Shown here: positions 43,127 through 62,348 of the stretch, one piece after another
Layout of the letters: each line of letters begins with the position of its first letter
How positions within the stretch are numbered: the stretch's first letter is position 1
Translations under genes and position numbers: made by a program
The notes under the pieces: model-generated
Told to the model about the DNA's origin: nothing
Databases searched by the model: none
What the model saw: the letters and a program-made list of their open reading frames with translations, nothing else
Source: Hyalella azteca
Lineage: Eukaryota; Arthropoda; Malacostraca; Amphipoda; Hyalellidae
Length of the DNA stretch: 64,000 nucleotides
Reading direction: 5' to 3'
Assembly: GCF_000764305.2 (NCBI RefSeq)
Contig: NW_025947067.1
Coordinates: 186,001 to 250,000 of the forward strand

Positions 43127-46100
43127 CTGCCAAATGGTAGATCATTACGATGCTAGTCATTACTATAATCCCTTTGTTTTGCAGGCAGGATATAACAAGC
43201 GAAAGTTATAAAAAGCCAAGGTTATAACAAGCTAATGTTTTAGATTTAGAACGTCACGCGTCACGCTACGTGATGTTCTATAATTGAGATTCAAGACAGA
43301 GTTTTACTACCGCAATATGCCACAGTGTAAGGTGAGTGAATTAAATCTTAGACAAGTAGTATATTAATTGTTAGAGTGAAAGCAAGACACAGGAAGACAG
43401 GAGCACCTCTCTTCTTGACCCTGATGATGAGGGAGATGGAGGTGAGCACAATGATAGGCACGGCCAGCAGCCCCAGCACCACCGCCGACACTCCTGTAGG
43501 TGACCACTTGGGGCTCTCCGTGCTCGTCGTGGGTGCCAGCTTCGTGAGGCCTGACCCCACGCCTGCAGTCCGTACAAATCATTACAAATTACAGCTATGA
43601 CGACGAGGAGAACATGTCGCGCTGAAAAGATACCTGCTTTTCTGACCCAAACAACGGTGCTACGCATGCATAATTTGCGTCCAGCGGCAAAGTGCACACA
43701 ATTCACAGTCCATATTTGCCACAGTCAACATTCACAGTCAATAATCGATCTGATATTTGCCACAGTCAATATTTGCTCGCCTAAAGCACAGGCTAAGATT
43801 GTAGTATTACATTATTAGTCAATAAGGTAGTCTGCCATATCTTCAATTGTGGTCTCACTTGGCTTAGTGAATCTTGACTTAAGCTGATCTAAGCAAGCGA
43901 ATAAATTATCTATTGTTGTAAGCTTATCGATGGAGTAGTCATTTACTTGAGCGAAAACATTGAACTGATTATTGTGTTAAGAAATAACTCCATGTATACC
44001 TTCAGGACATCCACGATCATGTCTCAATGTTTCAACTGTAGAAATTGAGCCCACACGTCTAATCGAATCTTGTCGCACTCGAATAAACAGACGAAATAAC
44101 TCATGAAATCGGAAACAAATGAAGATCAGGACTGTAAAATCTTCGAATTTAAAGTATTTTCTAGCATCCTAAGGTGTGAATATTTGCGATGGTATATCTA
44201 TCTACAATAGCATTGATACAATAGAAAATTCTGCTCAGGAACGTGGGTCTTAATTGCGTATGGACGAACAGTGCTGGAACAGAGCTGAGAGATGCAGATG
44301 ATAGAAGGAGATTGATGGAGATGCTGGCAGACCAACAGAAGAATGAGAATGAAACTAAACCCGATAAAAATAATATGTTGGAAGGTTATAGATGAGGTTA
44401 ACTGTCTGGCGCAAATTGTAATAGAAAACTGTTGGATAATCGAGTAAAAACGTGAGGCGAATGTTGTGGAGAATAGCAATACGGATAAAATAACACAGGA
44501 ATTCTTGGTGAAATTTAAGTATTGAAATGCGAGTGGCATAAAGCGGAGATGTGGGAGGAAGCAAAGCACGAAGTATAAACAAAAGAAGCAAGTCAATGGA
44601 GCTAGCAGCGTTGGCAGCTCTGATTCAACTCGTATAACATTAAAACTTGTTGATTATCCCCACTATTCAAATAAGTAACAAAAAAGCATAGGACACACAC
44701 CGTTAGAAAAAACGGTGAAAGAACGGTCCCACTGGCGTTCTAGTGGCCGGTCGCCCCGTGAAAATAAACTGTTTCGCCGTTTTTATCAGATGTTTTACGG
44801 ATTTCTAGTGTTAAATTAGAATAAAAACGGTGACACGGTGTTTCTCTTCACGTGCCGACCGGCCACTGAAACGCCGGTAATACCGTTAACGGTAATTTTT
44901 TTAACTGTGCAGAACATCCACAAGCGTGTCATCACTCTCCTCGCATGGAAGCAATTCAACTCAAACGCTAAGAGAATACGTGCTACTCAACACGGAACGT
45001 TACCTGCTAATGAACACTTGAAGCAAACTCGATTATAAAGAAAAACATTTTCATCATAAATAACAATTCCATTTTTGATAATAAACTAGGAATAGTAACG
45101 AAATCCTGGTGAAACAATAAAATGTTTTTGATAATAAACTAAGAATTATAAGTAAATCCTGTTCAAACAATGAAATAATTAGATTACATAAACGTCGTAA
45201 CTTTGCTTAATTCTCTCTGCTCTCTTCAAAACAAATTTCTACCTAGTAGCTTGGCTAAATCTTCTCTTCATTGTTATAAGGTAATAGTTACATGAAAGTT
45301 CAATGCGAGAATAGAGCTACAGAAACATCACCTCGCTTTAATGCAGGACCAATGATAATAATTGATAATTGAATTACATTATTACTCCTTTGCACTGAAA
45401 TTTCCCACTATCTTACAATACTGATGTTTGCGTTGTTTTGTGTACTGATGTGTAATAATGAACGGTCTATAGCCGGAATTGGCAAAAGCATCCTATTATA
45501 AAAACAATGAATGAAGGTAAAACAGTACTAATATGCATATTAATTCTCGTAAAGTTTAGTGGCAGTACCAACATATTTCAGGTTGCTGTTATCATCTCAG
45601 TTATTCGTTACTCTGCTCCACTAACGCTCCGATTCATTATGGACACTACCACCACCAGCCTCACTTCGCTATATGTTATAACATCATAACGCTGTATAAC
45701 ACCCAGATCCCATGGCCCCCCTAATAATAACATAACACTATAGAAGACCTCCCTTCCCCCCTGTTACGTTACCCCGCTTTAACAACACCGCTGTGACGTC
45801 ATAAAACGATATGACACCCCGATCTCCGTTATGTTAGTTCGCCCTAACATTAACACCATAACGCTACCTACAAAACACCCCTGCTGCCCGTTACCTTAAC
45901 CTGTCCTAACAATAACACAATAACACTACATAACACCGTAACGTTACACAGCACCTGAACGCTACATTATTATTATTATTAACATAACACCATAGCACTA
46001 CATAATACCATAACGTTACACAACACCCTGGTTACCGTGCAAGATCTGCTGCGCGTGCAGCGAGGCCTCGCTCAGCTCGTGCGTCTTGACAGGCTTGAGG

Positions 46101-49100
46101 TGAGGGCGCGCGTCCAGCAGCGAACCTGCGCAGCACCCAGCACACAACACGTGTGTGACCAACACGTGTGTGACCAACACGTGTGTGACCAGCACGTGCG
46201 TGACCAGCACGTGTGTGACCAGCACGTGTGTGACCAACACGTGTGTGACCAGCACGTGCGTGACCAGCACGTGTGTGACCAGCACGTGTGTGACCAGCAC
46301 ACGTGTGACCAACACGTGCGTGACCAGCACGCGTGTGACCAGCACGTGCACGTCACACCAGCACGTGTGTAACATGGCAGAGTAACACGTGTGGGCAAAA
46401 GGTAAATCCATGAGAAAACAGTGACGCTAAAATTCGTGTGTCTTATGCCACTGCAACAAGCGCGGCAATATATCAGATCAGAGGGAGCGTGCAGGCCTTA
46501 TTATAACACATTGATTTTCCTGAGCGATATAACAAATTTGAACTTTTGTAGGCTCGTGACTGGTATAAAAAGACAAGAGGTTGGTTAGTATAGAAACATA
46601 GGCGCGGCATCAAGCACCCGATACATAAACGTGCAAAAAAACAGAAGCTGTGATACGTACGCGACATTCCGCGGCGTCAACGCAAAATCAAACGAAGTCA
46701 GAAGAAAAACAGGATAAGAAAAAAGTGATAAGTTCCCTAGCATAAAACAAGCAAACGAAAAACATGAGAAGGCGAGGAGACGCGAAAATTAGGATCCAAC
46801 ATATAGAAATGAAGTTACTGAAGAGTTATACTTGGCCTTCTGAAGAGAAGAAGGCCAAAAAAGGATCAGAATTATTTGCATGCACTAATGGCGAGTCTGA
46901 AAGTTCCGAAATGCACCACGCATTTCCGTCTGCTTCAACTTTGTGAGTTATACGTGAGTTGCAGGTGAAAAAACTGCATTTACAAAGGAAATTTGTGCGG
47001 TCATGATTAATTTAGCAACAACGAAGCGAGTGACGGTCATGCAAAATATTTAGCCGTAATAGATTTAAGTGCAGGAAAAGAAAATAACAACTTAATTGAT
47101 AAGTTTAATATCTTTCAATAACAATAGACAACACCAGCAAAGCAACAAATCCCAAATAACAAGTAACAAATGCCCATAACAAAACAAACAACAATAACGG
47201 TGAGTATAAAGTAATAGTGACCTAAAATATGACATGAAACATTAAACGCTAAATTAAAACCATACGCGATGCAAAAAGGGCTAGAATTTAAAAAAATAGC
47301 ACAATTGCTATCAGTTGGAATTTGAATCTCCACATTAATTGCCACAAACAAATTTTCAGAAGCAAGAATTCAGTCGTAGTCATCGTCAGCATTCAATACA
47401 TAAAAAGCTGCACTTACATTTTAACCCTCTACCGCCGTATATCACTCTCCGGGAACATAACTTTCAAGTTGAATTATACGTAAACTATTGAGTGTAGCAA
47501 CCTGAGGACGCTTGTACGCAACAGAGAACAGTATAAAGTTTTCGTACGTGGTGGCAACCATCAGTGCAAGTCATTTTGCGCTCACTAGAACGTATCCTTT
47601 TTGGGAAGTAGGCGCATAACAATATTGCTCCGGTTACTCGTGTCAGGCGGTAGAGGGTTAATGGCCAAACAAAACTCGGGTGATGAACTTAATCTGATAA
47701 AGTATTTCTAAACTGAAGCAGAACATGAATAAAATAATTTAAAGTTTTTCAATCGTTGCTGTTTCAGCTAACAATCAATCAATTATCTCAAACATCTTTA
47801 TTTGCAAAAGAATACCGCAGGGGAATGATGTGAGAATGGAATAAATGACCTTTATACCGTACACAACAATAACAAAACAATACTTAGAATAAACGCAAAA
47901 AGCGCAATAAACGTAAAAAAGAGCGCAAATGCGATGTGGTTGCATCATTGGAGGATGAAGGAGGTGACTCGGGAGAGCATTTTATTGATGTTGTCAGTGA
48001 TGTCAGTGATGCTGTGAGCGATGCTGTGAGTGATGCCAGCAGGGGCGATGTCACGGAGAGGAAGAGTCAAGCGGTCCCTCGCTACGCAAGGAGACCGGCG
48101 TCAGTGTTAACACACATCATCTAAGTTACCCCGTAACACATATTGTAGTTAAAAATCATACAATGTGCAAGCACAGTTCGGTCAAATCACGAAGAGAAAA
48201 ATTAAAATCAGTGAGTTTAAAGAAAATCATAACTCAAGGGAGTTTCGTACTTGGTGGGTTTGAGAACCAAGATTTTGTAATAAGAATTGACGTGCAAAGT
48301 GAAAGCATGGCTAGCAGGACACAGGAGCGCTAACTAAAGATGATCACACCAAACACTTGCTTAATTAATTACCACAATAGAAATAAATAGTAGGCTGCAC
48401 TACAAGCCAACACTTACTTATTAGTCACACATGACACATCAGAAAATATAGCTCAGTTAAAGAAGAAGTAAAACGTTATCAACCACAAAGAAAAGACTAA
48501 CGATAAGTTTTGATACAGTAGCAGAAAAAGCCATAGAAGAGAACAAAAGACGTGACCAAAACTGAAGAAAGGAGAAGTGAAAGTTATAAATAAAGTCTAG
48601 CGAGGATGCAGTACAAAACAGCGAAACTAAATCAAAGAGATTCACAGTTAGGTTGAAATTTTCAGAAAGAGCCAAGCAAAGACTTTTTTAAGCGAAACTT
48701 ATTTCCAATATGCTCATTTGAAAACGTGTAGAAAAGTAAACCAAGCAGAGGCGCACAGACATTACTGATGCGCAAAACAACTACAACTGACAGTCGCAAA
48801 AATTACCCAGAATTTCGGCCCTACAAGCTTGAAGCTTTCTCAAAACCTCATCTGTTTAGCCGCAATTTCCAAACACCATTCCAAAACTTTAAAGGTTATC
48901 AACAACCATCGAGAGTATTGCCCTCAAATATACCAGATTACGTGGATAAATCCTGAGCAGACGCACCTGCTGTGAACTTCCAGACGAGGTTGGGGGAGAT
49001 CTCTGCGACGTACAACTCTGCGCCGTCTGCCGTCACCGTCACGTCGTGCACGAATGAGAAGCCCTGTCATGAAACATATGAGTAAAATTATGTAAATTAG

Positions 49101-52100
49101 GACATATTTTATTATGTAAATTATGTAACATATGATATGTGTTACACATTCACTTTATTATTTTAAGCATAAATATGTCATGATATAATTATTCTGTTTA
49201 GAATTGAAACGTTGAGCTGGCTCACTCTAGCTTGTGTTGGCATGACTTCATTCAAATTTATTACATAATTAATACTATGTTTTGCAACACTCAAGCCATA
49301 CTAGAACATTTAGTCATTTAGTAATACAGAAATATCACACAATATGTTTTTTTTCGAAACACTGGGCTAACTACGGTTAGTGTCGGCATTTAATTAAAGT
49401 TTATTACACCATAAATCGTGAAAATTAAAAAGGTGATTAAATGATAAACTGCGGAAATTTTAAACAACGCTTTAATTTATGTTATTGCACGAATATTCTT
49501 AGCAGTTCTATATAGGTTATGCAGCTGAAGTCCAGTTGGAAGACTTCAATCTCACCTGATCGTTAGGACTGAAGGCAGAGAGCAGTTGTCCGGAGCTGAA
49601 GTCCAGTTGGAAGACTTCAATCTCACCTGATCGTTAGGACTGAAGGCAGAGAGCAGTTGACCGGAGCTGAAGTCCAGTTGGAAGACCTCAATTTTCTGCT
49701 GCTGGCCGTACAACGATGGGCCGTTGACGCAGAACAGACGGCCTCCTGCACATCAAGAGATGGCCGTACAACTGCACTTATGTTAACAACACTCAAGCAA
49801 AATACAAAGAATCAAACATTACGTTATATTAATATCATCAATATTATCCAAAGAACATGAAAGATATTGTGAAAACGTCTTCGCCTGAATGTTGAAGGGT
49901 TTTATTTTATTTTTTAAATTCAAGTTTCTTACTTCCGAATCCTCGGGTGACTCATTATTATTTATAGTCTCCCAGCCCCTCACCGTTGACGGGACTACAG
50001 GTACAGTCAAGACACTCACCGTTGACGGGACTACAGGTACAGTCAAGACACTCACCGTTGACGGGACTACAGGTACAGTCAAGACACTCACCGTTGACGG
50101 GGGAATAAGCGACCGTGAAGAGCCTGCTGCCCCACTGGGGGAGCTTAACAACCCTCCTGAAGGCGGGGGCGTCGGAGGTGTCGTAGCACTGGAGGCGGCC
50201 GTTCTCGCGGTCGGCGACGCAGAGCTCGTCGTGGTCCTCAGCGAGGGCGAGGTCGTGGGGCACCACGAACACCCCCGCCGGCTGCCCCACCGCCGTCATC
50301 ATCAGACCTGCAACGGGTAATAATAATGATAATAATAATAATTACAATAGTAATAATAATAATACCCTGCCGCCGTCATGATCAGACCTGCAACGGGCGT
50401 CGGGCACTCAGAGAAATGTCACGGGCGTCGTCCAAATAGCGATATGCTTGAAGTATTTGTGTGAGTCATGCTGACTAAGAAGACCATTACATTGTTAAAA
50501 TGTCAAGAGCTTTACCCGTAACGCAAACTTATGGTATTAATGAACGGATAACTGCTTTACTTCGTACAATTGCATCACTAATATAGGTACGGTAATTGTG
50601 AGGTAGGGTAATGGCTGCTTCATCTTAAAGGAGAAAATAAGAGTAAAACTTGCCTTCAAAAGTGCTAGGCTTTGTGCAAAACGTAGCAAGATCCGAGGAA
50701 AAAACTAGAATGAGGGAAGATTACTCAAAATAATGAGGGAGAGTTACTCAAAATAATGAGGGAGAGTTATTCAAAATAATGAGGGAGAGTTATTCAAAAT
50801 AATGAGGGAGAGTTACTCAAAATATCGAGGGAGAGTTACCCTAAAAAATTAAGAAGCCTTGCTCAAAAAAGGTAAGATTTAATCCTGCAATGAGGTGTCT
50901 CACTGAGAACGTTGTTTTTAGGAGCAGCGCCGAACTGCGTGACGATGGAGCCGTCGCGCCGGAACTTGACGACGCGGCTGTTGCAGTAGCCGTCCGCTAC
51001 GAAGAAGTCCCCGTTCTTGAGCACCGCAACTGCAGCAGGCTTGCAGAAGTGACTCTTGTCGCTGCCTGGCTCCAGTCTGCACAGTGCACAATATATTATA
51101 TCCATATAATGACAAGAAAATAATACTTGAATGAAGTACATTGGCTTTGGCCGGTACCATAAATTAGACCTAAATAATGTTCATTGTTCACATCCAATAA
51201 TTACAATAAATTGAGCAGGGAGTGCAGGCAGACTCACAAGGTGCCCAGGGTGAGAAGAGGTTTGCCGTCCCCGAACTTCGGGGGGAACTTGAAGACCTGA
51301 TGCATGGCCACGTCCGTCACCCACAGATTGTCCTCAGCATCTACCGTCAGGCCGTGCGGCATGTAGAAACTGCGCTCAGTCAGGGGAAAATAATCAATTC
51401 CTGCAGGAATAATCTCGCTTGAAGGTGACAGACAAATACTCAATTCCTGAAGGAGTTGTTGTTGTAAGTATCGACCCTGGTAGTGGCCACTTGAGAGGAA
51501 GGTTGTAGGTCAGTATTTCAGGACACTCAGGCTACAGGAAGTTCTACCACCATCATTTGTTCGCTGACCCGCCAGAACCATTTAGTTCACATTTCGCAAC
51601 AACCTGGACAAGCCAGGTTCTCATTATCAAAACTGATTGGCTGAATGACTGAGATAGCCATGAGCTGACCATGTCCTGAGTGGGACAATTGGCATAGCTT
51701 CTACAAGGCCTCACTTGATGAGGCCTCCCATGACGAGGCATTCAATGTTACCATCATTGCACTCCCACCAAGCCATGCTACATCAACAAGTCATCCAACA
51801 GACACTAAATTATGGAGTGATATTTCCGGACGGTAACCTAATGATAATATGGGCTGATATTTACTGACAATAATAAAAATAAATGATTCAATTCACGCAA
51901 CAAATGATGATCACACTCATACTTTAGTCCTTGTGAATAATTGTCAGAACCCTAAAGTCCTTTTATTCCCTGAATTGTAGAGGGAGGTTGGTTACTGTTA
52001 TAATATGAACTTAGGTTAACTAATTTACTGTACTGGCATTCTAGGACTGTCAAGCTGACGATAGAAGCGGGACTACAAAACGTTTTCTTCTAGAAAGTTA

Positions 52101-55100
52101 TGGTGAATTTTTGAGCCGTTTTTTATAACTCGATCTCAAAATACTTGACATTTACTGGCAAGACACTCACAAGTCATGGCCACACTGCAGGAGCAGGGCC
52201 CCAGACACGGCGTCCAGCAGCAGGATGGTGTGCTGCTGTATGGGCCCCAGCACGGAGCTGTTGGCCAAGTAGTTGTCCGCCGTGAAGGACTCGCCGTCCC
52301 ACACTCGCCCGCCTCTGCACAACATGTCAACTGCCTTACTTCTTGTGAGGAGTCTACAGACTTCTAAATAGTGAAGAGTAGTAACAGATTTATGAAAAAT
52401 AACTGCTACCACTGCATTAGTGTCTGCCATCACTACACTACAGTGCCACCACTGCACCACAGTGCCTGCCACCACTGCACCACAGTGCCTGCCACCACTG
52501 CACTACAGTGCCACCACTGCACTACAGTGCCACCACTGCACTACAGTGCCACCACTGCACTACAGTGCCACCACAGCACACAGCTGCCGCACCTATGGAA
52601 GATGTAGACGTTGTTGTTGCTGTCCAGGTCGACGACAGTGCCTGCCACCACTGCACTACAGTGCCACCACTGCACTACAGTGCCACCACTGCACTACAGT
52701 GCCACCACTGCACTACAGTGCCACCACTGCACTACAGTGCCACAACAGCACACAGCTGCCGCACCTATGGAAGATGTAGACGTTGTTGTTGCTGTCCAGG
52801 TCGACGGCGGTCACTTGCCCCAACGTCGGCAGCGCAGGCGACTGCGCCCAGCCTGACTTCACCGCGTACTCTGCGAACAAATATTCTTGTATTGTGATAA
52901 CCCAAAAAATAACTAAATATCTATGCAAATGAATATATAAAATGAATTAGATTTTTTTAGTGTGAGAGCACAATAGTAATTATCCCGAGTAATTAATTGA
53001 AAAACTAATGTAAATAAATTGTTAAAAACTAAAATAAAGATAGCAGAAATTTTTTTTTAAATCAACCAATTCTCGGCAGTATACAGAAGGCCTACTGAGT
53101 GACTGATTTCAGTTACCAAACCGATGTTACGTATTTATCTGATTCTCTTTTATGCTTGTATCTTTGTCAAAATATCTGTAGACATGAATCATTGATGGCA
53201 TTCTTTAATAATCGCGGGTTCTTTTTCATCACTATCATTTTAAATTAAATGAAACATCCATTATTAAGTGAATAAAAAAAATAATTTGAGTTCATGACAA
53301 TTGCGGTAGGTACTAAAAACTTCTGACTTTACTTCCTAGTGAAAAACTTCCGTGTATTACTGACAATAGTTAAAGGTTATGCTTGATAAAAACATTATCT
53401 ATATGGCATGGTAGGTACAACACTTATTGTTACCTGTAACTGTGAGGGGGGCGGGTGTTGGTGTCACTGCGCTGAGTGAAAAACTTATGTGAATTAGTAA
53501 CAATAGTTGAAGGTTATGCTTGATAAAAACATTATTTATATGGTATGGTTGGTACAACACTCATAGTTACCAGTAACTGTGAGGGGGGCGGGTGTGGGTG
53601 TCCCTGCGTTGACCTGCTTGCCTGTCTTGCCCGCACCCACGGGCTTAGGGTGAAGCTTGAACTCATTTTCTGTAAATAATAATTTAGTTAATTACATGTA
53701 ATAATCTAAATTATGAGCGTATGACACACTATGGATCACATGCTCCTTATGTCCTTCATCACATATGGTTTATATATTTCAAATAAATGATGTATAAAAA
53801 TAAATTTGCTAATTCCACAGAATAACCAAAATTGTAAGCGATCGCATACGTTCGCGTGCTGAAAATAATAACTCGGTTGATTTCAAGTATTACTTAAACT
53901 ATTAAGCATATATAAAAATATGCATAGTTAATATCAAACAAATATTTCAGAATTAATAACCCTAAATTCCAAGTAATATTTGCAATTGTAAATCTTTAGG
54001 ATATTGTAGTTGAGGCTCATGTTATATTGTGCTGCAAATAACGCTGGCATTCAAATACAATGATATTATAAGGTAATATTGATTGAAATGTTTGCAAGAG
54101 GAATATAATAGTCAGCCCTGAATATTTTATTACATTCAGCCATTCAAATAACGTTCATTTTATAGCGTATGCCTATGAAACTACGCAGCCGTCAAAAAAA
54201 TCAGTACAACTAAATGCAGAAAACCGTAATTAGGCAGGGCAAAATACCAATAATTATTGAAAATGAATCGCACCAATAATTAGAGAAAAACAAACATGAC
54301 GTCATTCAAAATAAAATAATACAGTGCATCGACACAGGGCAACCGTTTGGAAAAAATCTGAAAATCTGAAGTAACAATTCATAACAGAAATAGAGACCAG
54401 ACCATAAATAGTTTCATAATGTGTTAACTGTACAGTAACACCAAACAAGTGAGAGGGCATTATGCTAATTATATTAAACATCGGGTAGGATGTTAAGGGA
54501 AAAGCAAGATATTCGCGTAAAAATACAGCGTCATGCACGTTCATTGCAGATATTTGACACAGAGGCAGAAAACTTCACAAAAATATCAACAGCAAATAAA
54601 AAGAAAGGCTTTGAGAAAAAATCCAGAAAATCTGGAATTTTAAGCCAAATACTCGCAGGAAAAATTGACCTTTGAACAATGAGGATTATAAAACAAATTG
54701 ATGTACTTTTAGAAAATTACAAACTTGGAGGGACGAAGCAGTATCTGCAAATAAAAAAACTTTTTTCTTAATTACACATACATATTATTACTTAGATGCA
54801 GAAGGATTAAACAAATGAGACGATAATAAATAAATAGAAGGCCGGCATCGCTAAACATGCACGGAGACTCGGCGCCTCAGCCAACCTCTCGCCGGCGCTT
54901 GCCCCCCAAAGTCTCCTCGCTCCCCATAGGGAGGCAAGCTCTCCCCAGCCTCCCACTGCGGGTACGCCTCCCCACTGGGGTAATACATCCCCCTCGAAAG
55001 GTCGAGTTGGAGATACGGCTGCTGGGGGACGACATGGTACTCTGCCTGGGGGTTAACCCCACCAGGATAGAGCTGTCTCCCTCTGGCAAGGGAATCATAG

Positions 55101-58100
55101 GGAGCCATGCCGCCCTGAGGCTTGGGGAAGCTAAGTTCCCCACGAGGATGCAAGGGTCTCTGACGAGCCCCGACGTACATCCCCCGCGGTCCCCAAGAGC
55201 TCACGGGTCTTCTCACGGGACTCACGCGGGACGCGGGGTACTCATAGTCGCTCGGGTCGACTGATCGACTTGCGTAATCCAGAAAATCTGAAATTTTAGG
55301 CCAGATACTTGCAATCGTGAGCCAGAAAATCTGCAATCGTGAGCCAGAAAATCCGCCATTGTGAGCCAGAAAAATTGTAATCGAGGGCCAGAGAACCTGC
55401 AATTGTGAGCCAGATACTTGCAAGCATGAGCCAGAGAAAATCCGCCATTGTGAGCCAGAAAACATATAATCGCGAGCCATAAAACTTGTAATCGAGGGCC
55501 GCAAAACCAGTAATTTTGCCAGAAAACCTGCAATTATGAGACAGAAGGCAAAAACTTTTTCTACGTCTGAAGAGAAGCTACCTTTCATGTTAGTCAAAGG
55601 AAAGAAATTCAAAGACAAACATGTTCCTTGTTCAGATCCAAAATTCCATAATTTATAATATGAACAATAATTAAATTAATTCACATGTAACTGATGTTTT
55701 AACGTACGAAAATAGTATAATACTGAAGAACAATACCACAGATTATATGTCTCGTTGAACCTTGAAGTGAAGTGTTAGTACAATGCTGATGAAAACGAAT
55801 GATGAGGTGAGATGAGAAGACGAATGATGAAGTACGTAAGATGACAAGACGAATGTTTGCACAGCTAAAGGGCAGTTAACAAAGCACCCATCTAGCCCAG
55901 TAAACGATTAACACGACATTAAATTCACCTTGAGGAGGAAGTTTTTCGTACTGGTGAGCTTTCTTCTCCACAGTGATGGGCTTGGGTTGCATGGTGACAG
56001 ACGCAGGCGCCATGGTGACCTCTGCAGTGGCGTGCGTCACTATAGGCGGTGAAGTCACCTCGCTGCTCTCGGCCAGAGGCTTGTATGTGACTGAGACGTT
56101 CTGAAAAAGACACTAAATAATGAATATGTGGGAAAAATTCAACAACAAAATGTACGTTAATGGAATACAGATAAAACGCGAGCAATATAGAAAACAACTA
56201 AATAGAGACATGGAATCGAGAAAAGAGCTAAATGGGGACTTTGGATAAATACAGAAAACAACATAATAAAGAAATGATATCAAGCAAAGAACAAAATAAG
56301 GACATTGGATAAAGAACGAGGCAGCAATTGGAGGCACACCTTGTTGGTGTTCTCGCCATGCGCCTTCATCTCTAGCATGGGGTTGGGGGGCAGCGGCAGG
56401 TCGTTGTCAGGAGGCAGGTTGGCCAGCACCTCAGGGAAGGCGTTGCCCCCACACACGGCGCCCTCCTGCCCCTTGTCCGTGTCCGTGTAGTACATCAGGT
56501 ACAAGTTGCACATCTCGTCGTTCTTTGTGCTTCCTGCGACCACACACGTACAATGTCAACACCGTTACTGACAATACTGAAATAGATGGTAAAAGCTGCG
56601 GAAATACAACACAGATATTAATAATCCTAGAGCAGATATTAAATGCTGGAACACGTGTCAGATATTGTCTCTAGTCTACACCATCAGGAGGAAGATCAAC
56701 GGATCTAAAGCGCATTCGCTCTCAGTTAGGAAAGCGAATGCAGAATGCAGTGGCTTGCTGCTTGAAGTTAGTAATGGTTCAATTACTATCTTTAAGCATT
56801 CAATTATATCAATGGTGATATAATCTTCATTAATGAGGTCTCAAGAGTCACATCCACCACGCACCTCTGCAACCTGTTGAGCAGCCGCGAGTGAGCTACA
56901 TAGGTAGATTCACGGCGAACTCCAATACTACCTCTACAACAGCAAGAACAAGGCACCCACTACCTCAACCCTCACATTACACCCATTGCCACAATACCCT
57001 CGATACACCCTGACCCATTGCCACGACCTTTACAATACACTTTTCCTCCCAATACATCTATTGAAAGACGTGTGGTGTAGTCCTTAGGAGGTACCTAGTA
57101 CTTAGATGTGCGGAAGAGTATGGGTAGATGTGCGTCACCATGTGGTACCCATGTATGTGGTGCGGTCCCCGTGGTACCTATATATGTGGTGCGGTCCCCG
57201 TGGTACCTATATACGTGGTGCGGTCCCCGTGGTACCTATATACGTGGTGTGGTCCCCATGGTACCTATATACGTGGTGCGGTCCCCGTGATACCTATGTA
57301 TGTGGTGCGGTCCCTGGCAGTAGAGTTGTAGGTGCAGCGGGAGGCGACGATGTCCTGAGGGGAGATGGTGAGCGCACGGTCCATGGGGTAGAAGGCCTGC
57401 GGCCACTGCGGGTTGCCCTTAGCGATCTTAGTGTACTCGCCGGTCTGCAACACGCGTACATCTTATATTGTGGTCGTTACAAGGCACGCCATTATTATAG
57501 GTTCCTTAAAGTATAATCAAAGTATTTTAGTTAATCATTTTATCAAATTGATAAACAACCATGCTGAATTGTGAGTTTTACAATAAGAAGACAAACTGGG
57601 GATAAACTCAAACATTAATTCCTGGAACACCGTTCATAATTTAGCTGTGTGGTCCTCACCTGCGTGTTGTACGTGTACCCAGACACCACAACCCCCAGCG
57701 TGTGGTCCTCACCTGCGTGTTGTACGTGTACCCCTGTCTCTTATACACATCTAGATGTGTATAAGAGACAGGGTCGCACTCGTCGTCGATGTTCTCCAGC
57801 TCGGAGAGCACCAAGTCCGACTCTGCTTCGTCTTCGTCGTCTACGACAGTGTGAAAAACTTTAAATTGACGGGAAATTTTAAGGTGGATTTAAGTTCATT
57901 TCAATATAAAAAAATGGTAATAATAATAAAAATAATTAGATGGGTACTCTTGAGTGTTAAAATCATAAATTATGCCACTAATTGCCTTCGATNNNNNNNN
58001 NNNNNNNNNNNNNNNNNNNNNNNNNNNNNNNNNNNNNNNNNNNNNNNNNNNNNNNNNNNNNNNNNNNNNNNNNNNNNNNNNNNNNNNNNNNNNNNNNNNN

Positions 58101-61100
58101 NNNNNNNNNNNNNNNNNNNNNNNNNNNNNNNNNNNNNNNNNNNNNNNNNNNNNNNNNNNNNNNNNNNNNNNNNNNNNNNNNNNNNNNNNNNNNNNNNNNN
58201 NNNNNNNNNNNNNNNNNNNNNNNNNNNNNNNNNNNNNNNNNNNNNNNNNNNNNNNNNNNNNNNNNNNNNNNNNNNNNNNNNNNNNNNNNNNNNNNNNNNN
58301 NNNNNNNNNNNNNNNNNNNNNNNNNNNNNNNNNNNNNNNNNNNNNNNNNNNNNNNNNNNNNNNNNNNNNNNNNNNNNNNNNNNNNNNNNNNNNNNNNNNN
58401 NNNNNNNNNNNNNNNNNNNNNNNNNNNNNNNNNNNNNNNNNNNNNNNNNNNNNNNNNNNNNNNNNNNNNNNNNNNNNNNNNNNNNNNNNNNNNNNNNNNN
58501 NNNNNNNNNNNNNNNNNNNNNNNNNNNNNNNNNNNNNNNNNNNNNNNNNNNNNNNNNNNNNNNNNNNNNNNNNNNNNNNNNNNNNNNNNNNNNNNNNNNN
58601 NNNNNNNNNNNNNNNNNNNNNNNNNNNNNNNNNNNNNNNNNNNNNNNNNNNNNNNNNNNNNNNNNNNNNNNNNNNNNNNNNNNNNNNNNNNNNNNNNNNN
58701 NNNNNNNNNNNNNNNNNNNNNNNNNNNNNNNNNNNNNNNNNNNNNNNNNNNNNNNNNNNNNNNNNNNNNNNNNNNNNNNNNNNNNNNNNNNNNNNNNNNN
58801 NNNNNNNNNNNNNNNNNNNACAGAGTGGTGTACTAACAGAGTGGTGTACTAACAGAGTGGTGTACTAACAGAGTGGTGTACTAACAGAGTGGTGTACTAA
58901 CAGAGTGGTGTACTAACAGTGTGGTGTACTAACAGTGTGGTGTACTAACAGAGTGGTGTACTAACAGAGTGGTGTACTAAAAGAGTGGTGTACTAACAGA
59001 GTGGTATACTAACAGAGTGGTGTACTAACAGAGTGGTGTACTAACAGAGTGGTGTAGTACTAACGGAGTGGTGGTGAGGGTCATGCTGAGGCCGGAGTGG
59101 TCGCTAATATCAGGGATGGCGGTGGCGTAGTGTATCTGCAAGGTCAGGTATTTGATCCAAGACGCGCCGCCGATCCTGAAGCCGACGCCCTGAGGCAGCG
59201 CCGTGGAGGGGGCGTTCTGCGCCCAGGCGTACATGATGCGCCCGTTGCTGCACACACCGTGGTGCCCGCAGTCCCTGGGGGGGGGATTAATGTGCATCAT
59301 GGACGATTACTCTATATACAATTACAGTAGATCTTCTACGTTATATGCGCTAAATACACATCATATACGCCCACTGCAATCTTACGGTCCATAATATACG
59401 CTTACTTTACTATTATTATAAATCACCCATACATTTAAACAATATAATCTTAACACCTTTAACCCTCTACCGCCTGACACGAGTAACCGGAGCAATATTG
59501 TTATGCGCCTACTTCCCAAAAAGGATACGTTCTAGTGAGCGCAAAATGACTTGCACTGATGGTTGTCGCCACGTACGAAAACTTTATACTGTTCTCTGTT
59601 GCGTACAAACGTCCTCAGGTTGCTACACTCAATAGTTTACGTATAATTTAAGTTGAATGTTATGTTCCCGGAGAGTGACACACAGCGGTAGAGGGTATAG
59701 GTATAGCCGGGCAGTTGCTCGCATCTGACGGCTCTACAGGTTGATAATTCCAGTGAAGGTAAACTGATAGTGGCTGAGAAGTAGTAATACATAAAAGCCT
59801 TTTTTCAACAAATAGATGTGAACAAATTGTCATGCATCCACTCCTGGATACACTTGACTTGATAAAAAGCCGACGTTCTAATGCCGCTGCTGTTAAATTC
59901 TTCCATTGTTTACTTTGTATGATCTGAATAATCAAATTGATGGAGCAGTAAAGTCAAGTAATGTTAGCTAAGACTCATTATAGTGTTGACGCGTCTATTG
60001 ATAAGGCAGCACACAGCACAGCCACACAAGTGTCCGCGCCTGCAGCTGCTGCTGACTCAGAAGCAACCGTCGCATAAACAACGAACATTCAAAGCTTTTC
60101 ATAGCTGCAGGACTGAAACATGGCTGTGCACAACTGACGGTTCCAGGAACACTAAAAAAAATGAAACATGGCACTTCACAAGAGGTTTCGCAGCAGTGAA
60201 TAAGCAGGCTCTTTGACTTCCAGTTCAGTGCACGACTCAGAAGCGAAAGTGCGTGCATTGTTCTTGCATTTTTTGGTCGACATACAGCACTTAGATATGA
60301 GATAAAACACCGAAAACGAAATAAAGAACTGAGAAACCAACTCACAAATTCTTGAGAATTAGCGGCACAGTCTTTCCCAAGACTATAGGAAAAAGACGTC
60401 TTCTTTTCTTTGAATCTGAAGAAACTGCGACTTTAGCAAGACTCGCTTCGATGCAATGAATGCGCTTAGTTTTCTCATTTTTGAAAGGCTTGTAAACCTC
60501 AATAAAATCTTGCGCTCTCACAGAGCCCTACTACTCGGTAATGAAGCGCAATGCTGTGAAACTCTCCCATAACTTATAACCAACCGACCAAGTATATATA
60601 GAATTAGCAATCAGTCTTAATTTAGCTATATTAACCTCAAGGAATATTTTCACAAATAGTCTACAAAGGCAAAAAATAAAAACAACTCATATAAGATATT
60701 ACAATTTCAATTGGAGACATTAGCGACTGAAGGTAACTGCAGTCAAGCAACACACTGTGCTGCGTGCCGGCGAGGCCTGATTACATCGTAATCGCTAAAA
60801 CCATTTCGATGAAGAAGTGATGAATTGACTTTGAAATTCTAGGTGAAAAAGAGAGGATTGCTCCCAACATGTTAATAGAATCCCAGACTCGAACCTTTAA
60901 AAACTGAAGGAAGGGCTGGGATTTGTTCCCGCCGGCCTAGCCTTGCTAAATTGTAACCGCATTTAGATAGCGACAATTCAATGAAAAAAAACTATGGGTC
61001 AAACTGTCCTAAATAATAACACACTGACTGCACTTAGATTTGATACCATCTTTGCTGGGCTAAACTGGGTCAGGATGACCCACACCAGGTTAAGAAGTGA

Positions 61101-62348
61101 GTTACCATTTTGAAGAAGTCCCACTCATTCTATGTTTACTTTCGTGAATATGAACATCGAGAAATACACTCAGAGCAGCTCACCAGTACCGCGGATAATA
61201 ACTCAACATGTTCAGAGCAGCTCACCAGTACCGCGGATAATAACTCAACATGTTCAGAGCAGCTCACCAGTACCGCGGATAATAACTCNGAGCAGCACAT
61301 GTTCAGAGCAGCACATGTTCAGAGCAGCACATGTTCAGAGCAGCACATGTTCAGAGCAGCACATGTTCAGAGCAGCACATGTTCAGAGCAGCACATGTTC
61401 GGAGCAGCACATGTTCGGAGCAGCACATGTTCAGAGCAGCACATGTTCAGAGCAGCACATGTTCAGAGCAGCACATGTTCAGAGCAACCCACCATCAGAG
61501 CAAGACATGTTCAGAGCAGCTCACCAGTATCCGTCCGTCTGGGGCACATCAGAGCAGGCGTAGAGCAGCATGTGGTGGGCTCTGTTGGCCGAGGCGAGGG
61601 GGTCGAATTTAACCACCCACTCCTCCTGGGTCTGGTTCAGCGCAAACGGCGCGCACAGGTATTCTTCTGGCTGAAATTATCCCATAATTGCAATAACATT
61701 CAATGGAACAATCAATAAGAGGCGAGTATTAACAGGTTCCGGACGTCTAATGAGATAAGCACCATGAATTTGTTACGGGAAAATCGGGAACAAATGAACA
61801 TGGACCGTGGAACGTCTACCTATATACGAGTCTGGCATCCAGTTTTGACGACAGACACAGAGTTTGTTGAAGCAAATAGGCATGAAGTATAAGCTTGAAG
61901 TTGAAAGTTATAGGTGGTATATATTCAATGATAAAAGTCATATACGTATATATAGTACAAATATCAAAATATGAAGAATAGAGTAATAGGCCGAACGGCT
62001 GAATAAAAAGAGAGTGAATTATTTTCATTAATTAACAACTTTGATGACGTACGGCATTCGTAATTCGTCAGCAAGATAATTCAATATAAATATTATTAGG
62101 CTAGCAAAATGCATTTTCACTCATATATACATTTCCAGAAGTACGTACTAGCGTATGTACGAAGGATAAGTTTAGCCTAAAATGATGCCTGTATTGATAA
62201 GTAAACTTAAACGAACCGTGGGTGGTGATACTCCGGGCATGGTGAGCTTCCTCGTATAAGTGACGTCACCACTCGGCTCACCACCCAGCACCCTCGTGGT
62301 CACCATCATCACCACACACATCACCACTAACACTGCTTTCGTTGTCAT
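42900..62348 (-). CDS. PAM: Peptidylglycine alpha-amidating monooxygenase, bifunctional PHM-PAL, membrane-bound
   Basis: Exons in transcript order: 62348-62217, 61670-61525, 59274-59065, [exon(s) in gap], ~57700-57660, 57444-57294, 56533-56340, 56100-55929, cassette 55260-54886, 53669-53571, 52870-52765, 52314-52171, 51369-51238, 51076-50904, 50307-50092, 49745-49627, 49063-48967, 46125-46036, 43562-43407, 43126-42900. Phases agree at every visible join. PAM amidates neuropeptide C-termini in the secretory pathway: PHM hydroxylates the terminal glycine (copper, ascorbate, O2), PAL cleaves it to amide and glyoxylate. Seen: a signal peptide; PHM copper ligands HH (AHHMLLYAC), LQIHY and Met in DEMCNLY; PAL NHL repeats with [32 protein letters not shown]; one transmembrane helix; an acidic tail. 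The PHM His-x-His segment is lost at the assembly break. Confidence 0.95.
43407..43562 (-). CDS. PAM: PAM transmembrane exon
   Basis: Acceptor actgcag, donor AGAG|gtgctc, phase 1 to 1. A 23-residue hydrophobic helix ([20 protein letters not shown]) followed by the stop-transfer RVKKR. Confidence 0.9.
43563..44699 (-). other. PAM intron, no further feature
   Basis: A 132-codon minus open frame at 44198-44596 is AT-rich with no recognisable domain and no matching splice context; treated as chance. Confidence 0.4.
44700..44910. mobile_element. Foldback element in PAM intron
   Basis: Two arms of about 80 bp, imperfectly complementary (ctagtggccggtcg against cgaccggccactga; cgccgttttt against aaaaacggtg), around a roughly 40-bp centre. 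No coding capacity. Confidence 0.75.
45660..46020. repeat. Low-complexity cataacac-rich tract in PAM intron
   Basis: Irregular repetition of cataac/ataacac/acgctac motifs, without a fixed period. Confidence 0.6.
46036..46125 (-). CDS. PAM: PAM juxtamembrane exon
   Basis: Acceptor ctgcgcag, donor CACG|gtaacc, 90 nt, phase 1 to 1. Encodes [20 protein letters not shown] and [10 protein letters not shown]. Not recognisably conserved, but phase and composition fit. Confidence 0.75.
46145..46375. repeat. 15-bp minisatellite with CACGTG in most units, about 15 copies
   Basis: The unit cacgtgtgtgaccag is stop-free on both strands, so it shows long spurious open frames. It sits just upstream of the acceptor of exon 46125-46036. 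Confidence 0.94.
46376..48966 (-). other. PAM intron, mostly featureless
   Basis: Besides the MITE at 47425-47657 there is a plus-strand open frame at 47936-48124 with short VSDAVSDA repeats; no evidence that it is expressed. Confidence 0.4.
47425..47657 (+). mobile_element. piggyBac-like MITE, 233 bp
   Basis: Ends CCCTCTACCGCC and GGCGGTAGAGGG, flanked by TTAA at 47421-47424 and 47658-47661. TTAA target duplication with CCC-starting inverted repeats is the piggyBac hallmark. An inverted copy of equal length lies at 59463. Confidence 0.9.
48967..49063 (-). CDS. PAM: PAM exon, last PAL blade (FVHDVTV)
   Basis: Acceptor atgacag, donor GCAG|gtgcgt. Encodes [20 protein letters not shown] and NLVWKF. 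The His matches the third PAL zinc ligand, but the preceding Met-Pro of mammals is Phe-Val here. Confidence 0.9.
49523..49690. repeat. PAM: 71-bp tandem duplication over a PAM 5' splice site
   Basis: Unit starts at 49523, 49594 and 49665 (third partial). Each full unit carries the exon end ...AACGATCAG and donor gtgaga, giving donors at 49627 and 49556. Confidence 0.93.
49627..49745 (-). CDS. PAM: PAM exon, PAL
   Basis: Acceptor tgtgcag, donor CAG|gtgaga. Encodes [20 protein letters not shown] and [19 protein letters not shown]. The last part and the donor recur 71 bp downstream. Confidence 0.9.
49979..50122. repeat. PAM: 36-bp tandem repeat over a PAM 5' splice site, 4 donor copies
   Basis: The ctcaccgttgacggg motif (minus strand: CCCGTCAACG|GTGAG) recurs at 49979, 50015, 50051 and 50087. 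Unit length is a multiple of three and open in the exon frame. Confidence 0.95.
50092..50307 (-). CDS. PAM: PAM exon, PAL (VPHDLAL ... CVADRENGR)
   Basis: Acceptor cgttgcag, donor AACG|gtgagt, 216 nt. Encodes [20 protein letters not shown] and DRENGRLQC. Its 3' end and donor are repeated three more times at 36-bp spacing and remain in frame, so the true end may vary. Confidence 0.93.
50705..50845. repeat. 23-26 bp repeat at 5' end of a PAM intron
   Basis: Five to six units of atgagggagagttactcaaa plus ata, starting about 60 bases after the donor at 50904 (minus strand). Confidence 0.88.
50904..51076 (-). CDS. PAM: PAM exon, PAL (GYCNSR)
   Basis: Acceptor ctgtgcag, donor CTCA|gtgaga. Encodes [18 protein letters not shown] and [11 protein letters not shown], with the second zinc-ligand His region and the conserved Tyr/Arg. 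Confidence 0.95.
51238..51369 (-). CDS. PAM: PAM exon, PAL zinc-ligand His (YMPHGL)
   Basis: Acceptor gcgcag, donor ACCTT|gtgagt. Encodes [20 protein letters not shown] and AMHQVFKF; the His in MPHGL corresponds to a PAL zinc ligand. Confidence 0.95.
51370..52170 (-). other. PAM intron, nothing recognised
   Basis: No repeat or exon seen. Confidence 0.5.
52171..52314 (-). CDS. PAM: PAM exon, PAL (GRVWDG)
   Basis: Acceptor tgtgcag, donor GACTT|gtgagt. Encodes [20 protein letters not shown] and [20 protein letters not shown]. Confidence 0.94.
52430..52764. repeat. PAM: 19-bp minisatellite plus partial exon duplication in PAM
   Basis: Units of ccaccactgcactacagtg fill 52430-52570 and 52640-52745. 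Between them 52581-52640 is a second copy of the PAL exon end and donor (next to 52753-52812), offset by 172 bp. Confidence 0.92.
52765..52870 (-). CDS. PAM: PAM exon, start of PAL domain
   Basis: Acceptor gttcgcag, donor CATAG|gtgcgg. Encodes [20 protein letters not shown] and NNNVYIFHR; the Arg in FHR binds substrate in rat PAL. Confidence 0.92.
53341..53614. repeat. PAM: 137-bp tandem duplication over a PAM 5' splice site
   Basis: gaaaaactt at 53341 and 53478 start two copies that each run through ggttatgcttgataaaaaca to the exon end CCCCTCACAGTTAC and a GGTAAC donor. Confidence 0.88.
53571..53669 (-). CDS. PAM: PAM linker exon before PAL
   Basis: Acceptor atttacag, donor ACTG|gtaact, 99 nt, phase 1 to 1. 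Encodes [20 protein letters not shown] and a Pro/Thr tail. Confidence 0.82.
53672..54850 (-). other. PAM intron, no feature recognised
   Basis: AT-rich; open frames here are short and unlike any known domain. Confidence 0.4.
54886..55260 (-). CDS. PAM: PAM putative cassette exon between PHM and PAL
   Basis: 375 nt, phase 1 at both ends, acceptor gatcag|TC and donor AGAG|gttggc, so it can be included or skipped without a frame change. Codes a Pro/Tyr/Gly/Arg-rich segment ([47 protein letters not shown]) with an Arg-Arg pair. GC content is far above the surrounding intron and the frame stays open. If the donor is not used, the frame runs 12 codons further to TAG at 54853-54851, which would make a PHM-only product. 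No similarity recognised; the placement resembles the vertebrate linker exon. Confidence 0.7.
55270..55530. repeat. 22-24 bp repeat upstream of the PAM cassette exon
   Basis: About ten imperfect units of gagccagaaaatctgcaatc. On the minus strand many units read ttgcag followed by attttctgg, i.e. acceptor-like AG sites in tandem. Confidence 0.85.
55929..56100 (-). CDS. PAM: PAM linker exon
   Basis: Acceptor ttttcag, donor CAAG|gtgaat. Codes a Pro/Thr/Val-rich linker ([15 protein letters not shown]..., [18 protein letters not shown]) with a Lys-Lys pair. Phase 0 to 1. Confidence 0.88.
56340..56533 (-). CDS. PAM: PAM exon, PHM Met ligand (DEMCNLY)
   Basis: Acceptor ggtcgcag, donor AAG|gtgtgc. 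Encodes [15 protein letters not shown]; the Met is the copper B-site ligand in PHM. Ends [10 protein letters not shown]. Confidence 0.94.
57128..57310. repeat. PAM: 29-bp minisatellite over a PAM 5' splice site, about 5-6 copies
   Basis: The unit (minus strand) ggggaccgcaccacgtatat plus aggtaccac is nearly the same as the exon end and donor GGACCGCACCACATACATAG|GTATCAC. Confidence 0.94.
57294..57444 (-). CDS. PAM: PAM exon, PHM C-domain (WPQAFYP)
   Basis: Acceptor tgttgcag, donor ATAG|gtatca. Encodes [20 protein letters not shown] and [16 protein letters not shown]. Confidence 0.93.
57660..57700 (-). CDS. PAM: PAM exon fragment next to adapter artefact ([11 protein letters not shown])
   Basis: Ends at CAG|gtgagg (57660) in phase with the next exon. 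[11 protein letters not shown] matches the segment after the copper-site His-x-His (mammalian KVVSGYRVRNG). A second copy of its end lies 53 bp away (57713), after which the sequence runs into a Nextera adapter, so the exon's 5' limit is unknown. Confidence 0.7.
57734..57771. other. Nextera mate-pair junction adapter (assembly artefact)
   Basis: CTGTCTCTTATACACATCT followed directly by its reverse complement: the Tn5 mosaic end pair left by Nextera mate-pair circularisation. It is not genomic. Sequence to its right up to the gap may come from kilobases away. Confidence 0.97.
57772..57850 (-). CDS. Acidic exon-like fragment of unknown origin beside adapter
   Basis: The minus strand has an acceptor-like tcgtag and then an open frame [20 protein letters not shown] ending ECD at the adapter. 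It does not look like PHM. The pattern LENIDDECD vaguely recalls thioredoxin-like proteins (weak). Possibly a different locus joined by the mate-pair artefact. Confidence 0.3.
57993..58819. other. Assembly gap (827 N)
   Basis: Run of N. It replaces at least the PHM exon with the HxH copper ligands. Open frames spanning it are meaningless. Confidence 1.
58820..59064. repeat. PAM: 16-bp minisatellite over a PAM 5' splice site, about 15 copies
   Basis: The unit (minus strand) ccactctgttagtaca copies the exon end and donor CCACTCC|GTTAGTAC. The array runs into the gap on its left. Confidence 0.95.
59065..59274 (-). CDS. PAM: PAM exon 3, PHM core (LQIHY)
   Basis: Acceptor cccccccag, donor ACTCC|gttagt, 210 nt. 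Encodes [41 protein letters not shown] and HSGLSMTL, all PHM landmarks. Confidence 0.95.
59463..59695 (-). mobile_element. piggyBac-like MITE, inverted copy
   Basis: Reverse-complement copy of 47425-47657, same 233-bp length. TTAA is kept at 59459-59462; the other flank has changed to TATA. Confidence 0.9.
59696..61164 (-). other. PAM intron, no further feature
   Basis: No exon or repeat recognised apart from the MITE end. Confidence 0.45.
61165..61524. repeat. PAM: Mixed 42-bp and 16-bp minisatellite over a PAM 5' splice site
   Basis: Three 42-bp units contain gagcagctcaccagta, the exact complement of the exon 2 donor region (TACTG|GTGAGCTGCTC); then about 12 units of gagcagcacatgttca. A single N at 61289 marks an unresolved join. 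Confidence 0.93.
61525..61670 (-). CDS. PAM: PAM exon 2, PHM copper A-site His pair
   Basis: Acceptor atttcag, donor TACTG|gtgagc. Encodes [39 protein letters not shown], then DVPQTDGYW. The donor region is amplified in the adjacent minisatellite. Confidence 0.95.
61671..62216 (-). other. PAM intron 1
   Basis: No feature recognised. Confidence 0.5.
62217..62348 (-). CDS. PAM: PAM exon 1, signal peptide
   Basis: ATG at 62348, then a Val/Met-rich hydrophobic core ([12 protein letters not shown]), ending [19 protein letters not shown] matches the PHM N-terminus (RMPGVTP in mammals). 44 codons, donor ACG|gttcgt. Confidence 0.88.

Follow-up and report, generated by a model that had tools for sequence, protein, structure and literature searches.

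Minisatellites over exon-intron boundaries in the amphipod Hyalella azteca: donor-heavy in PAM, two-sided in a sample of other genes

Introduction

In the PAM gene of Hyalella azteca, many 5' splice sites lie within minisatellites, which raises the question of whether a process directed at donors multiplies them. An initial annotation of the locus had proposed such a process, after noticing at least eight PAM donors inside tandem repeats that include the last bases of their exons. The proposal is followed up here in a window of 64 kb (the whole stretch of DNA that was analysed) and in a sample of introns from other genes of the same genome.

Gene models and detection of copies

Gene models were built for PAM (minus strand), PGM2 (plus), EPT1/SELENOI (plus) and alanine racemase (minus), giving 35 donors and 35 acceptors in total. 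Junctions were fixed by continuity of the reading frame together with rat PAM, the H. azteca PAM and alanine racemase proteins and Trinorchestia EPT1; the PAM model is backed by the annotated H. azteca protein, its best protein match, and by rat PAM. A junction-crossing copy was defined as an off-diagonal copy extending over the junction with a score of at least 14, the maximum of 300 base shuffles being 12. The placement test used TRF arrays with a score of at least 50 and a period of at least 10, of which 28 were counted as intronic, including one (47986-48036) that sits in an alternative last exon. GC content in the window is 36.5% for introns outside arrays and 58% for exons, and 14.1% of the sampled intron positions fall in tandem copies.

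Some further features of the window are recorded here for their own sake. EPT1, alanine racemase and PAM adjoin one another (7820-62346); in Petrolisthes manimaculis the three carry successive locus tags (Pmani_007383 to 007385), and the three matches in Chionoecetes opilio, like those in Oratosquilla oratoria, lie on contigs of equal size, which suggests an old, conserved malacostracan cluster. Intron 6 of alanine racemase has an apparent GC donor (window 28649, ACAG/GCAAGT; here and below the slash marks the junction). By eye, two PAM introns hold a sequence of about 240 bp in two copies of opposite orientation (about 47421-47661 and 59457-59700), with inverted ends (CCCTCTACCGC...) resembling those of a small DNA transposon.

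Eight PAM donors are copied together with their exon edges

Junction-crossing copies were found at 8 of the 35 donors in the window, and every one of these is in PAM (8/18 PAM donors; Table 1), as the initial annotation had claimed. Seven of the donor positions it listed stand; the eighth, 57660, is the second copy of a duplicated site, and the own donor of exon 4 is 57713. The copy at 59065 scores exactly 14. Each array duplicates its own exon edge and the neighbouring intron with the copies on the intron side, and at all eight donors the units align to the neighbouring exon end, a check that the annotation had called for. Behind the first-copy offsets of 257 and 19 stand periods of 42 and 16, respectively; at the former a 16-bp array intervenes. 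The copied exon part at 57713 is shortened by an assembly join.

Units of different PAM donors have no 9-mer in common, which rules out a single mobile repeat family and agrees with the earlier view that a different sequence was amplified each time. The unit at exon 2 resembles arrays of other periods elsewhere in H. azteca. As a separate observation, CATGTT-like units of 14, 15 and 16 bp make up arrays at unrelated loci, a sign of how minisatellite-rich the genome is. Most copies at the eight loci have diverged: those at exons 3, 5, 9 and 15 carry substitutions relative to the exon, and those at exon 15 have a common variant that is absent from exon 15 itself. The copies at exon 14 are identical over the compared part.

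Table 1. Tandem arrays and assembly features at splice sites of the window (window positions; exon part and offset of the first copy in nt)
Feature	Position	Strand	Exon part copied	First-copy offset	Details
PAM exon 2, donor 61525, with arrays	61170..61525	-	5	257	42-bp units TACTG/GTGAGC..., offsets 257, 299, 341; also a 16-bp array without donor copies; single N at 61289
PAM exon 3, donor 59065	58820..59073	-	9	19	14 copies listed downstream, the first at offset 19 and the rest at 16-bp intervals; array continues into N gap
N gap beside exon 3 array	57993..58819	.
Adaptor-like perfect palindrome in assembled PAM exon 4	57734..57771	.			38 bp; sequence match in both orientations
PAM exon 4 end	57630..57733	-	21	53	53-bp duplication; own donor 57713, copy 57660
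PAM exon 5, donor 57294	57142..57314	-	21	29	29-bp units of 21 exon and 8 intron nt; 5 downstream copies
Optional PAM exon 8, acceptor 55287	55279..55515	-			22-bp array over acceptor
PAM exon 9, donor 53571	53338..53612	-	42	137	137-bp duplication, 90% identical over aligned part
PAM exon 10, donor 52765	52419..52806	-	42	172	172-bp duplication containing a 19-bp array
Array after PAM exon 13, donor 50904	50709..50868	-			23-bp array; starts 65 nt into intron; 69-bp TRF row from 36 nt
Acceptor of PAM exon 14 (exon starts 50307)	50274..50408	-	18	-80	Duplicated acceptor; TAA run separates the two copies
PAM exon 14, donor 50092	49979..50101	-	10	36	36-bp units; 3 downstream copies, open and in frame
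PAM exon 15, donor 49627	49523..49692	-	66	71	71-bp units of 66 exon and 5 intron nt
Array before PAM exon 17, acceptor 46125	46148..46348	-			15-bp array; stops 22 nt short of acceptor; 201 bp without AG
Array at PAM exon 17, donor 46036	45912..46027	-			Degenerate 18/36-bp array, 9 nt from donor; missed by the initial annotation
PGM2, donor 333	357..608	+			53-bp array; units hold diverged exon end and donor
PGM2, donor 1722	1730..1875	+			23-bp array; begins at 8th intron base

Other arrays near donors and acceptors

The array said to lie about 60 bases inside the intron of donor 50904 is indeed there, and no exon copy was found in it; at donor 46036 an exon copy was likewise looked for and not found. 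PGM2 donors 333 and 1722, named as further examples, fared differently. At 333 the units are 77-81% identical to the exon end and donor, with a score of 11 that falls below the cut-off, and the downstream copies are 97% identical to one another versus 79% to the exon copy. At 1722 there is an array, and no donor copy was found in it.

Spanning copies occur at 2 of the 35 acceptors (55287 and 50307). The first corresponds to the acceptor array reported near 55270 and the second had been missed, whereas the other one reported, at 46145, stops short of its acceptor. The statement that arrays are much rarer on the acceptor side holds within the window (2/35 versus 8/35) and is not borne out in the outside sample described below. 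Depletion of AG in acceptor-side arrays (0 in 201 bp, 1 in 428 bp) was considered as a splice constraint and dropped, because it concerns only two short units and other acceptor arrays have AGs.

Placement of arrays within the window

Nine of the 28 intronic arrays lie over a donor or within 10 bp of one, as against a single array at an acceptor. Random placement predicts 0.8, 2.1, 3.2 and 4.3 arrays at donors for allowed exon overhangs of 0, 30, 66 and 120 bp, respectively (p<0.0001, <0.0001, 0.002 and 0.015), a donor excess in the direction that the initial annotation expected. After removal of the seven TRF donor arrays it had pointed out, 21 arrays remain; with 2.0 expected in each case, 5 are no more than 30 bp from a donor (p=0.03) and 3 no more than 30 bp from an acceptor (p=0.32). 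In PGM2, EPT1 and alanine racemase taken by themselves, 3 of 11 arrays fall within 30 bp in the donor placement test (p=0.05). Counted per junction over the four genes, the 8/35 donors do not differ significantly from the 14.1% of intron positions in copies (p=0.11), nor do donors from acceptors (p=0.08); for PAM alone, the comparison of 8/18 donors with intron-position density gives p=0.003, post hoc. Given the array placement, the donor skew inside the window is therefore real and mostly in PAM.

Donor-side arrays are richer in GC than other intronic arrays of the window (0.50 vs 0.37, p=0.006). Donors with and without copies are not separated by the GC content of the exon end (p=0.17) and are separated by that of the intron start (0.50 vs 0.39, p=0.004), a value which the copies themselves raise.

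Boundary arrays in other genes of the same genome

The outside sample comprises 67 introns from genes for myosin, kinesin, carboxylesterase and P450, called by script from Pfam matches and a splice-site score rather than from transcripts, with gaps of up to 6 kb allowed. Of the matches listed, those used were 79 of 90 for the myosin head, 27 of 141 for kinesin, 12 of 84 for carboxylesterase and 9 of 101 for P450; for the latter three families compact clusters were chosen, and 27 of the 67 introns therefore lean short. By set, 40 introns are from myosin, 16 from kinesin/esterase and 11 from kinesin/esterase/P450. In one myosin region of the sample (C3480:70706-73952), a single myosin-head exon (profile 376-436) is present as five similar, successive copies, like the mutually exclusive exons of muscle myosin.

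Boundary-spanning copies were found at 7/67 donors and 10/67 acceptors, divided into 7/40 and 8/40 in the myosin set and 0 and 2 in the remaining 27 introns. Omission of one myosin intron that spans alternative exons (C3480:74317) leaves 7/66 and 10/66. Among 29 outside arrays, 8 touch a donor and 7 an acceptor, against 2.5 expected for each (p=0.002 and 0.008, respectively, or p=0.03 and 0.08 if a wider overhang is allowed); 15 of the 29 touch a boundary of either kind, where about 5 are expected, or 7.8 with the wider overhang. Per position, outside junctions are not above the intron interior (20.5%): the 7/67 donors are, if anything, fewer (p=0.05) and the 10/67 acceptors do not differ (p=0.29). 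Nor is the GC content of the boundary arrays significantly higher in this sample (0.44 vs 0.35, p=0.08). With these counts, boundary arrays are general and two-sided in the outside sample. A process specific to 5' splice sites is thus not reproduced there, whereas an excess of arrays at exon-intron boundaries over random placement is found both in the window and outside.

A stricter screen applied the cut-offs published for chicken, which demand an exon copy in the adjacent intron of at least 20 nt and at least 42.1 bits. In the window it returned 5 matches in 4/34 introns, all on the donor side; shuffled sequence scored no higher than 18.3, and four of these matches end at most 2 nt from the exon border. 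A similar screen outside, which took 80 nt of exon flank and was run without shuffling, returned 6/67 introns. The cases number 1 on the donor side and 6 on the acceptor side, with one intron counted under both. One of these introns was dropped because it holds alternative myosin exons, which leaves 5 introns with 1 donor-side and 5 acceptor-side cases and, combined with the window, 9/101 introns with five cases on each side.

When window and outside sample are pooled, with one myosin intron dropped, copies occur at 15/101 donors and 12/101 acceptors (p=0.68). Of the 57 pooled arrays, 17 touch donors and 8 touch acceptors, with about 4.6 expected at each, or 7.1 with wider overhang; the excess at both ends jointly has p=0.00045 or less, and the acceptor-touching arrays alone are not significant (p=0.08 and 0.41, depending on overhang). 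The contrast in polarity between the window and the outside sample is borderline (p=0.09 for arrays, 0.11 for junctions and 0.048 for the strict screen) and the sample is small, so a modest genome-wide excess of donors over acceptors is possible. PAM itself is donor-heavy, with 8/18 donors against 7/67 elsewhere (p=0.002, post hoc), and the lesson is that one gene can suggest donor specificity even when other genes, taken as a sample, show arrays on both sides.

Probable origin and tolerance of the arrays

In our judgement the arrays are probably minisatellites of local origin that happen to include an exon-intron boundary and are tolerated while the exon-proximal site is used; there is no need to invoke a mechanism specific to donors. 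If a boundary were tandemly duplicated over a short length, the copy would fall in the intron, and the mRNA would be unchanged provided that splicing kept to the site closest to the exon body; such a duplication would hence survive. Duplications inside exons would be removed, and slippage or unequal exchange would then add further units. The annotated H. azteca protein, itself a prediction, uses the exon-proximal donor at exons 2, 5, 9, 10, 14 and 15; it runs into the array at exon 3 and reads the second copy at exon 4, both of which adjoin an assembly defect. Exon positions more than 70 nt from a donor and more than 40 nt from an acceptor are never in copies (0/423), and over all sampled exon positions the share is 3.0% of 1060, some of these positions belonging to alanine racemase exon 7 and PGM2 exon d rather than to the loci described above.

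Tolerance alone may not suffice, since arrays outside the window touch boundaries above uniform placement (15/29 versus about 5 expected), and boundaries may attract extra arrays, perhaps with GC-rich exon edges as seeds. A rival reading would make both kinds of boundary mutational hotspots for minisatellite birth, for instance through the step from GC-rich exon to AT-rich intron. The joint excess among the 57 pooled arrays and the GC-richness of donor-side arrays in the window are consistent with such hotspots. We nevertheless regard them as unlikely, as the outcome hinges on the exon overhang that is allowed, as the p-values for pooled acceptors illustrate, and as junctions are not above the intron interior per position. 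A tentative and rather doubtful generalisation is that in H. azteca minisatellites arise preferentially at both kinds of boundary, in genes unrelated to one another, with about one intron in ten copying its own exon edge; if it were true, the species would be a dense natural system for studying how boundary duplications originate and whether alternative splicing or new introns follow from them.

A donor-specific DNA process, in which R-loops, pausing or repair at 5' splice sites multiply donors in particular, appears improbable. It draws on the 9 arrays at donors versus 1 at an acceptor in the window (p<0.0001 to 0.015), on the 5/21 arrays near donors once those first pointed out are set aside (p=0.03), and on a contrast between window and outside sample that is only borderline (p=0.048-0.11). 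Against this stand the outside sample, with 7 donors and 10 acceptors of 67 and arrays divided 8 to 7, and the near-equality of the pooled junctions (15 vs 12 of 101, p=0.68).

Assembly soundness and selection on the copies

Three of the eight PAM donor loci touch assembly defects, namely the join in exon 4, the N gap beside the exon 3 array and the single N at exon 2. The palindrome in exon 4 matches the Nextera mosaic end exactly in either orientation and is taken as an assembly join rather than as part of the genome. Together with the N gap it removes the rest of the exon, and most of a 58-residue stretch that in Hirondellea links the end of exon 3 to the GYKYS motif is absent from H. azteca PAM. 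The open frame on the far side of the palindrome matched no Pfam family and looks foreign to PAM. Copy numbers of the arrays in the assembly may be wrong. That falsely repeated contig ends or gap filling created the arrays themselves is very improbable, even though three loci touch defects and the exon 14 units are identical over the compared part: the loci of exons 5, 9, 10, 14 and 15 lie in gap-free sequence and most copies have diverged, which makes an artefact unlikely at those five loci; substitutions distinguish the copies at exons 3, 5, 9 and 15 as well as those of PGM2, and certain of these changes are common to more than one copy; and the same type of array occurs at unrelated loci. 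Assembly error was accordingly rejected as the main account.

Equally hard to credit is the retention of donor copies by selection, as decoys or alternative donors: the 36-bp copies at exon 14 are in frame without stops, so that use of a downstream donor would add repeats of 12 residues, and the exon 9 copy (CAG/GTAACA) is nearer the usual donor consensus than the exon (CTG/GTAACT), but use of the copy would shift the frame at the four single-copy donors (53, 71, 137 and 172 nt) and the only exons at which the annotated protein relies on a copy are 3 and 4, next to the assembly defect.

Comparison with known systems

Splice sites copied by tandem duplication supply material for alternative splicing and have been proposed as a source of new introns, and a common laboratory amphipod with many such sites would permit direct tests of their rate, mechanism and effect on splicing. 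A route of intron gain by tandem duplication of exon sequence bearing AGGT has been proposed (PMC4974935). The H. azteca arrays are like it in that the duplication takes in splice-site sequence and unlike it in that the copies sit in existing introns.

The closest structural parallels are found in amphioxus and chicken. In amphioxus, so-called mirages are minisatellite-like tandem repeats with units of 10-160 bp that lie over exon-intron boundaries, both 5' and 3' (PMC3087553); they are spliced normally and unstable in length, both from haplotype to haplotype and somatically, and are known in Adh3, globins and PGBD5 (PMC3087553, PMC3902484). The H. azteca arrays resemble them in spanning both kinds of boundary (8 donors and 2 acceptors of 35 each in the window, 7 and 10 of 67 outside), in copying splice signals and in unit length, the range of 16-172 bp across the eight PAM loci being taken to agree with mirage units of tens of bp to about 160 bp. 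They differ in their arthropod host and in affecting many introns of one gene together.

In chicken, exon stuttering denotes exon-edge fragments that carry a donor or acceptor and recur in tandem along the neighbouring intron. It is known from dot chromosomes, 190 of whose 5,572 introns (3.4%) are positive in the screen, and goes with introns that differ in length from one individual to another; the words 'donor' and 'acceptor' occur once each in the main text of that report, and no counts per side were found there (PMC12954441). The structure is the same in H. azteca, and the exon-edge screen returned introns in the window and outside. The setting is not, as chicken dot chromosomes are rich in GC, unlike the H. 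azteca window, in which introns outside arrays have about 36% GC. Among the matches listed, titles and abstract openings pointed to no account of such boundary repeats in a crustacean. As far as sequence can tell, the H. azteca arrays match both mirages and exon stuttering in structure. What is new is the arthropod host, the high frequency and the occurrence in AT-rich introns.
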